Assembly (NCBI RefSeq): GCF_000244975.1
Contig: NZ_CM001440.1
Coordinates: 3,394,325-3,458,324 of the forward strand
DNA: 64,000 bases
DNA from: Saccharomonospora cyanea NA-134
GTDB taxonomy: Bacteria; Actinomycetota; Actinomycetes; Mycobacteriales; Pseudonocardiaceae
Direction: 5' to 3'
Position 1 is the stretch's first letter; the number at the start of each line of letters is the position of its first letter. The position numbers were made by a program, and so were the translations under genes. Under the pieces are notes generated by a model. The model was not told the DNA's origin. It was given only the letters and a program-made list of their open reading frames with translations, and did not search any database. Shown here piece after piece: positions 27,501 to 30,784 of the stretch.

Positions 27501-28532
27501 ATGTCCGTCCAGACACTCGAACGTGAGGCTCGCGGGATCCGCCAGCGCAGCATTCCCGCACCCGCCGCCGACGACGTTGTGCCTGTGCCCGTCGAGGAAC
27601 AGCCCGACCTCGACGCCCAGGGACCTGCCGCCGACCTGGTGCGTGTGTACCTCAACGGCATCGGCAAGACCGCTCTGCTGACCGCCGAGGAGGAGGTCGA
27701 CCTCGCCAAGCGCATCGAGGCGGGTGTGTTCGCCCAGCACGTGCTCGACACCTCCGGCGACCTCTCCGCTGAACGCAGGGGCGAGCTGGCGGCCATCGTG
27801 CGCGACGGTGAGCGCGCCAAGAACCACCTCCTGCAGGCGAACCTGCGTCTGGTGGTGTCGCTCGCGAAGCGGTACACCGGGCGGGGGATGCCGCTGCTCG
27901 ACCTCATCCAGGAGGGCAACCTCGGGCTGATCCGCGCGGTCGAGAAGTTCGACTACGCCAAGGGTTTCAAGTTCTCCACGTACGCGACGTGGTGGATCCG
28001 GCAGGCCATCACGCGCGGCATGGCCGACCAGGGCCGCACCATCCGGCTCCCCGTGCACCTCGTGGAGCAGGTGAACAAGCTGGCGCGCATCAAGCGCGAC
28101 CTTCACCAGCGGCTCGGCCGGGAGGCCACCAACGAGGAGCTGGCCGCCGAGTCCGGGATCGCGGAGACGAAGGTCGCGAGCCTGCTCGACCACGCGCGCG
28201 ATCCGGTGAGCCTCGACATGCCGGTCGGCACGGAGGAGGACGCCCCGCTGGGCGACTTCATCGAGGACTCCGAGGCCACCGACGCCGAGAGCACGGTCAT
28301 CTCGACCCTGTTGCAGGACGACCTCCGCCGGGTGCTGGCGACCCTCGACGATCGCGAACAGCAGGTGATCCGCCTGCGCTACGGCCTCGACGACGGCCAG
28401 CCCCGCACTCTCGACCAGATCGGCAAGCACTTCAGCCTGTCCCGCGAGCGGGTGCGGCAGATCGAGCGGGAGGTCATGGCCAAGCTGCGCCACGGCGAGC
28501 GGGCCGACCGGCTGCGCGCTTACGCGAGCTGA
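27501..28532 (+). CDS. sigB: Principal-like RNA polymerase sigma factor SigB
   Basis: 343 residues. It lacks the long Lys-rich region 1.1 of SigA but has regions 1.2-4.2 almost identical to it: [36 protein letters not shown], and region 4.2 [20 protein letters not shown]. SigB of actinobacteria is a non-essential SigA paralogue used in stress and stationary phase. The leader carries an ECF-type promoter. In mycobacteria sigB lies about 3 kb from sigA and is followed by ideR; here the interval is about 14 kb and ideR is absent. Confidence 0.93.
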
Positions 28533-28610
28533 CCACACCGCCACAGCGGGTCACCACAACGAACGACACATCACCCGGACGTCGCGTTGACTCGCGCCCC
28601 GGGTTCACGA

Positions 28611-28652
28611 GACGGTCGAGAACGCGCTCACGAGGGCGCGTTCTCGACCGTC
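28611..28652 (+). terminator. sigB terminator hairpin
   Basis: A perfect 17-bp stem (28611-28627 with 28636-28652) around an eight-base loop, about 80 bases after the sigB stop. No T-run follows. Confidence 0.8.
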
Positions 28653-28773
28653 GTCGTTCGCGGCACGGGCGCGGCCATGTTTCGCCGTGTCACTGCGGGG
28701 TGATGGACCTCGCGATCGGCTCGCCGGTCGCCTGCCCCGGAAGGTCGGGTCCGTCGGGGTGGGCCCGGCCTTC

Positions 28774-28935
28774 CGACCCGCGGTAGCGGGTGATCGAGCA
28801 CCGACCCGCGGTAGCGGGTGATCGAGCACCGACCCGCGGTAGCGGGTGATCGAGCACCGACCCGCGGTAGCGGGTGATCGAGCACCGACCCGCGGTAGCG
28901 GGTGATCGAGCACCGACCCGCGGTAGCGGGTGATC
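28774..28935. repeat. 28-bp tandem repeat array with internal hairpins, six copies
   Basis: Repeat units begin at 28774, 28802, 28830, 28858, 28886 and 28914. The first five are identical 28-mers and the sixth is cut after 22 bases. Each contains the inverted repeat ACCCGC-GGTA-GCGGGT followed by GATCGAGCAC. There are no unique spacers, so it is not CRISPR, and 28 is not a multiple of three, so it is not protein-coding. It lies 90 bases before the fumarase start. Confidence 0.9.
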
Positions 28936-29024
28936 TGCATCGCGCGGCGGCGTGGGCTCCTGATCAGGGCTCCGGCCGCGCGATACGGTCTAACCCCCTG
29001 ACCACGCGCAACGGAGCCCGAGCT

Positions 29025-30731
<1,707 letters not shown>

Positions 30732-30740
30732 CGCACCCGC

Positions 30741-30784
30741 CACGGGCCGACGCCGTGGAGACGATCTCCTGGCGTCGGCCCGTG
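30741..30784. terminator. Fumarase terminator hairpin
   Basis: CACGGGCCGACGCC (30741-30754) pairs perfectly with GGCGTCGGCCCGTG (30771-30784), giving a 14-bp stem and 16-base loop, nine bases after the fumarase stop. It may also end the convergent lipoprotein transcript, whose stop is at 30790. Confidence 0.8.

Follow-up and report, generated by a model that had tools for sequence, protein, structure and literature searches.

What is a perfect 28-bp tandem array doing between the sigma factor gene sigB and a fumarase gene of Saccharomonospora cyanea NA-134, and how did it arise there? In the window, the 64,000-nucleotide stretch of contig NZ_CM001440.1 that we analysed (positions 3,394,325 to 3,458,324), Tandem Repeats Finder placed the array at 28773-28935, on neither strand in particular, as 5.8 x CCGACCCGCGGTAGCGGGTGATCGAGCA, head to tail without spacers (period 28, 100% matches, no indels, score 326). 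An initial annotation of this DNA had called the same array from one base later, 28774-28935, as identical 28-bp units without spacers, each with an inverted repeat ACCCGC/GCGGGT around a GGTA loop. The array is real, the 5.8 copies match at 100% without indels, and the repeat ACCCGC-GGTA-GCGGGT occurs in every copy. The array is an already known kind of element: its head-to-tail units (28 bp x 5.8, 100%) fall within the range of about 10-100 bp that marks minisatellites.

The genes on either side are readily assigned. Upstream, sigB (27501-28532, plus strand) matches NCBIfam model NF005920, RNA polymerase sigma factor SigB, with 615 bits against a cut-off of 464. Downstream, the gene at 29025-30731 (plus strand) encodes a class I, Fe-S fumarate hydratase. 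Its best match, NF011920 (E 5.6e-247), scores 820 bits, below the cut-off of 1094, and the protein falls under the cut-offs of the full-length class I fumarate hydratase models; it exceeds that of the domain model TIGR00723 (188 bits against 145). The array adjoins fumarase, as first described, and the computed gap between the array end and the GTG at 29025 is 89 bases rather than 90. A predicted fumarase -10 (TACGGT, 28984-28989, plus strand), conserved in eight congeners, lies 48 bases after the array, and the fumarase promoter would be located there; a sigma-70 consensus scan of 28400-29200 returned no site for this -10. Between the two stands a conserved fumarase upstream motif, GGTGATCTGCATCGCG (28929-28944, plus strand), whose first 7 bases are the last bases of the array and which is found in the same form or as close variants in L195-L198. 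In the form GGTGATCTGC(A/G)TCGCG, this motif, centred some 60 bases upstream of the inferred start of fumarase, resembles a CRP box (GTGA-N6-TCGC), and its distance to the -10 is fixed in nine species. An open reading frame of 712 aa on the minus strand (28605-30743) crosses the array antisense to fumarase and is taken as spurious.

On the sigB side, the array had been said to follow the sigB terminator. Hairpins do precede it, but they are not only that: a promoter-like block and the hairpins of a conserved sRNA-like gene, at 28587-28775, end where the array starts. Within this gene, a 17-bp hairpin (GACGGTCGAGAACGCGC / GCGCGTTCTCGACCGTC; 28611-28652, plus strand), read from the sequence and partly conserved in congeners, is probably what had been taken for the sigB terminator, and it shares bases with the -10 predicted for the sRNA-like gene. 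The array itself begins within the last bases of the hairpin that closes the gene, here termed H3 (ending at about 28775).

The genome, a single contig of 5,408,301 bases, contains the 26-mer of the unit five times, all inside the array, and this count was unchanged with 3 mismatches allowed. A dispersed intergenic repeat of the REP, BIME or MIRU type, which the initial annotation had put forward as the case that would make the array ordinary, is thus ruled out for this genome by the single locus. A CRISPR array is likewise ruled out, because the units abut without spacers. When 858 kb of the 5.4-Mb genome (the window and 40 other stretches) was scanned for tandem repeats, the array ranked third by score and was the sole perfect one among arrays with at least 3 copies and a period above 10 bp. 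The only arrays that outscored it were two imperfect repeats, one of 282 bp x 1.8 (L087, 14086-14595) and one of 72 bp x 3.3 (L102, 3040-3275). Across 12 genomes of the genus, a 21-mer scan allowing up to 3 mismatches found the six array copies and, in seven other genomes, one site apiece that was 2 or 3 mismatches off; a backward-read control gave three sites. An exact scan for the unit junction in a genome collection and in viral contigs gave no match, and exact scans found no second strain of the species in either collection, both of which may leave out records near the window.

Eleven congeners were searched for the spacer between sigB and fumarase, which was matched in eight of them and not in G007, G008 and G011. 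The array was missing from the spacer in all eight congeners read. In these eight and in the window, the left border of the spacer is a hairpin ending in CCTTCC and the right border is GTGATCTGC(A/G)TCGCG. The bases GACCC follow CCTTCC in the window and in only four of the eight congeners, so the left end of the unit is not a strongly conserved element. The distance from CCTTCC to the motif ranges from 7 to 85 bases in the eight congeners and is 155 in the window, while that from the motif to TACGGT is 39-40 bases in all nine species, which indicates that the length of the spacer is free and that the promoter spacing is held.

The borders also account for the unit. Its start equals the tail of the adjoining hairpin, CCGACCC, and it contains GGTGATC, the start of the fumarase upstream motif; the first copy of the array opens with the hairpin tail, and the last closes on the GGTGATC of the motif to its right. 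Because the unit ends equal the two flanks, the unit is the boundary itself plus GAGCA, as an expanded local tandem duplication would leave it. This composition points to a local tandem duplication, followed by expansion, as the origin of the unit. A short stretch spanning CCGACCC (the tail of the terminator-like hairpin), the filler GAGCA and GGTGATC (the left edge of the fumarase motif) would have been duplicated, and then multiplied via replication slippage or unequal recombination. A recent expansion, which had been proposed from the identity of the copies, fits the single locus in the genome, the absence from the eight congeners read and the perfect copies. We consider it highly probable that the array is a species-specific minisatellite of recent origin, a duplicated boundary multiplied by slippage or unequal recombination. 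It sits where the DNA of the region varies most freely, with the 3' end of the sRNA-like gene on one side and the fumarase upstream motif on the other, and would be near-neutral filler between two transcription units whose conserved elements are retained on both sides. The mode of expansion and the near-neutrality are both what we infer from this arrangement. Should the array have an effect, it would come from spacing or from read-through ahead of the fumarase promoter, and it would vary with the number of copies.

The same spacer holds arrays in some relatives. The pattern of the left hairpin was matched in 132 of 297 family genomes, and we fetched 100 of the 132, at 10.6-20 kb each. Unrelated arrays with a score of at least 150 lay in the post-hairpin spacer of 4 of these 100 relatives, where the DNA of the site totals 12.7 kb; the other intergenic DNA of the same stretches, about 298 kb, held 10 arrays, from which about 0.4 would be expected at the site. 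In sigB-sense coordinates they are found at 10102-10320 in L117 (unit of about 55 bp), 10128-10306 in L120 (61 bp), 10087-10197 in L140 (12 bp) and 19884-20000 in L180 (22 bp, with the contig ending inside the array); all four belong to other genera. The survey relied on crude gene calling, and the four arrays were already known when it began; an array hotspot is therefore a lead and not a test, and these arrays lend post hoc support to a freely varying spacer.

Other functions for the array can be weighed against these observations. Perhaps the copy number alters the distance or the supercoiling between the end of the upstream gene and the fumarase promoter, such that the array is a variable-number promoter repeat tuning fumarase. 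Its location 48 bases upstream of the predicted -10 would suit this role, the perfect copies imply recent change, and there is a precedent in Mycobacterium tuberculosis, where promoter tandem repeats are linked to expression (PMC12817950). However, the spacing between the motif and the -10 stays constant whether the preceding spacer measures 7, 85 or 155 bases, and we regard such tuning as improbable.

The initial annotation had also raised a series of RNA hairpins, which would act on a transcript that reads through into fumarase, by attenuating or stabilising it. For one unit alone the folding energy is -12 kcal/mol, equalled or bettered by 6 of 200 shuffles, and the whole array gives z-scores of -3.0 and -3.2 on the two strands, with 1 of 200 shuffles as good as the -3.0; this better-than-shuffle folding may come partly from repetition. 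Perfect stems of at least 6 bp with a loop of 3-8 bases occur, however, in 6.8% of shuffled units and in 7.2% of random 28-mers from the window, both read as tandem units, so stems of this length are found in about 7% of random units. With about 3-7% of controls matching it, the 6-bp hairpin of the unit is only mildly unusual. Moreover, the array is positioned after H3, a conserved and much stronger hairpin, and the terminator scan of 28400-29200 gave no site, although the same scan misses H3 too. The case for a hairpin series is consequently weak, and we judge it very unlikely.

An iterated operator, with a regulator bound at each unit, fares no better. Every unit does repeat GTGATC, the left part of the conserved CRP-like fumarase motif, and GGTG-N6-CACC forms a short dyad. 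The consensus for CRP is GTGA-N6-TCAC. Set against it, the units read GTGA-TCGAGC-ACCG and lack the right half, TCGC at CRP spacing, whereas the sequence following the last copy completes GTGA-TCTGCA-TCGC, such that the full motif is reached by the last copy alone. In addition, 28 bp corresponds to 2.67 helical turns at 10.5 bp, which is not a whole number, and no such array is present in the eight congeners. With copies that hold just GTGATC of the motif, the iterated protein-binding site that had been suggested is weak and can hardly be expected. An assembly artefact, in copy number or in presence, is just as hard to credit: short perfect repeats are easily mis-assembled, and the L180 contig ends inside such an array, but this genome is in one contig of 5,408,301 bases. 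Taken together, the interpretation given in the initial annotation is partly supported.

At its left edge the array adjoins the sRNA-like gene, which has an organization of its own. A covariance model, R1, matches its core at 28689-28777, reaching 77.4 bits on the plus strand (E 9.5e-11 when the whole genome is searched), the window sequence being one of the 52 in the model. Two helices lie within this core. H2, GCGAUCGG-CUCG-CCGGUCGC, spans 28712-28731 (plus strand); the family-wide test covered the outer five of its pairs. H3, at 28738-28775 (plus strand), is a 16-bp hairpin that closes the gene and is terminator-like, without a U-tract; its minimum free energy is -31.9 kcal/mol (z -5.8), against -21.8 for the opposite strand. 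In a hand-picked alignment, the upstream order is TTGAC, a palindrome, a -10-like block, the H2 stem GCGRYCGG/CCGRYCGC, a short linker and then H3. RNAalifold recovered both H2 and H3 from each of two parts of the family, of 28 and 37 sequences.

The pairing was examined across 101 loci, which are the window and 100 relatives. Alignment A3, used for the model, comprised 52 of the 101 loci, chosen by hand for spread and leaving out L117, in which H2 is broken. In its 52 rows, 98.4% of cells were paired, and 5 pairs, with 56 cells, had changed on both sides. Among 500 shuffles, none equalled the real alignment in pairing, compensatory counts or covariation score; overall, 0 of 500 were as high on four measures, and the number of pair types was reached by 3 of 500. 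Sliding the helix partners cut the pairing to 31-56%. Because A3 had been hand-picked without L117, we recounted the pairing over all 101 loci. H3 was paired in 1312 of 1313 cells (99.9%) and H2 in 472 of 504 (93.7%), with at least one unpaired H2 cell in 25 of the 101 loci, in most cases at the inner pair. A conserved structure in which changes are compensatory, one of the properties expected of an sRNA gene, was thus found for 28587-28775. A U-G wobble in H3 was retained in 99 of 101 loci; it pairs only on the sigB-sense strand, and so counts only if that strand is the RNA.

The location of H3 argues against its being a general leader of fumarase. It lies 92-282 bases past the sigB stop in 98 of 101 loci and farther away in three, L121, L157 and L209 (661, 1165 and 1310 bases). 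Fumarase is within 600 bases in 69 of 101 loci and within 6 kb in 95. In the other 32, fumarase lies over 600 bases beyond H3 or was not located, two of these having a contig that ends first. We rejected the leader reading because H3 follows sigB in these loci as well. The locus is probably an independent sRNA, which would be transcribed from its own promoter and end at H3. Judged by the distance between promoter and hairpin, its predicted length would be about 150 nt here and about 70-190 nt among the relatives.

Matches to the covariance model were found in 323 of 390 genomes of the Pseudonocardiaceae, a family known for its antibiotic producers, up to 52 of them holding by construction as members of the model. 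They cover 40 of 46 genera, and five of the 323 genomes contain two matches. In a sample of the order, 45 of 298 genomes matched, 43 of which belong to the family and two of which are weak (E 0.003 and 0.009). A sample of the class gave 4 matches in 296 genomes; two of these come from family members, and the remaining two are weak (E 7e-4 and 8e-4). Among the 80 of 593 fumarase loci listed, at least nine had a plus-strand match with E below 1e-5. Five of these are from Amycolatopsis, one of them a MAG, and the others from Umezawaea, Lentzea, Sciscionella and an unclassified Pseudonocardiaceae MAG; there were weaker minus-strand matches over the same hairpin as well. No other fumarase locus among these 80 matched at E below 0.1, and among the loci listed Saccharopolyspora rosea and two Pseudonocardia gave no model match within 1,200 bases upstream of the fumarase gene. 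In the window, a minus-strand match (E 0.42) over the hairpin was set aside as the mirror of the same hairpin. The hairpin pattern matched a second time in G103, G235 and G251. In the two of these that were read, as L052 and L059, the additional hairpin shares the stem base, is located at 1501-1543 in both, and adjoins what by eye resembles a crp-like gene; in L052 no TTGAC-palindrome block was seen before it. These second hairpins were not counted as the RNA.

Rfam 15 gave no match in the window at gathering score. Seven sub-threshold matches (E up to 5) fall in 28450-29100, five of them to microRNA models. The best is MIR7486 at 28593-28674, with E 8.8e-5 and 36.7 bits against a cut-off of 67. 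All seven were taken as chance likeness of GC-rich hairpins, and a known RNA family was rejected on this basis. No RNA between sigB and fumarase is described in the titles and abstract starts that the literature search covered. Published work on Saccharopolyspora erythraea lists 647 predicted and 190 putative ncRNAs (PMC3827479, PMC4008361), which may include this RNA.

A promoter-like block precedes the gene at 28587-28616 (plus strand), with TTGAC at 28587-28591 and GACGGT at 28611-28616. TTGAC was present within 300 bases upstream in all 101 loci, where about 0.14 would be expected per locus, and column counts showed conserved -10-like columns across the surveyed promoters. A scan of 28400-29200 with sigma-70 and terminator consensus sequences returned 0 promoter-like and 0 terminator-like sites. 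At the sRNA-like gene the scan was negative because the -10-like block departs from TATAAT and H3 has no U-tract. Between the two promoter elements, 80 of the 101 promoters carry at least 7 of the 8 core bases of GTGA-N6-TCAC, all 7 bases after the start of TTGAC; 5 of 859 other TTGAC sites in the same stretches reach 7/8, an excess that is not a p-value, since related sequences are not independent. The 21 loci that score lower are all eight surveyed members of the genus of the window (5-6/8) and 13 of other genera. The box of the window is accordingly eroded, with 5/8 core bases at best and TTCAC kept at 28604-28608. CRP of M. tuberculosis is reported to bind a palindrome (PMC4117774). A CRP site between -35 and -10 would be expected to repress, and in many genera cAMP-CRP would shut off the sRNA-like gene.

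Each of the two elements has counterparts elsewhere. M. tuberculosis carries promoter tandem repeats at lpdA, cysG and dop for which copy-number variation has been found and effects on expression have been reported or proposed (PMC12817950), and promoter tandem repeats have been reviewed (PMC3899988). These VNTRs and the S. cyanea array are alike in having a unit of tens of bases, repeated head to tail directly before a promoter; the copy-number variation is a feature of the M. tuberculosis loci, and the S. cyanea array is likened to them by layout. The sRNA-like gene, for its part, has a promoter-like block, covarying helices and a terminator-like 3' hairpin, and is nearly always present in one copy per genome. 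In these respects it is like the conserved actinobacterial small RNAs 6C RNA, Ms1, scr5239 and Mcr11. In a comparison that covered Rfam families, none reached its gathering score in the window. Spot 42 RNA of the enterobacteria is a CRP-repressed sRNA. By working mode alone the sRNA-like gene may be likened to it, as most surveyed relatives have a CRP-like box lying across the promoter-like block; the window differs, its copy of the box being eroded.

One may join the two elements into a single picture, which we put forward as tentative and on balance unlikely. It would have an unnamed Pseudonocardiaceae sRNA directly after sigB, with a promoter gated in most genera by a CRP-type regulator, acting in trans on carbon or energy metabolism; the spacer after its 3' hairpin would be a recurrent birthplace of arrays, and the array of S. 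cyanea would modulate fumarase.

The array would matter as a strain marker, or if it is shown to change fumarase expression. Its sRNA-like neighbour matters more: it is a structured locus, single-copy in most cases, that 323 of the 390 sampled family genomes carry and that is without a match in Rfam 15, a ready target for studies of RNA, and the CRP-like box leads to a direct, testable hypothesis on when this putative sRNA would be made.
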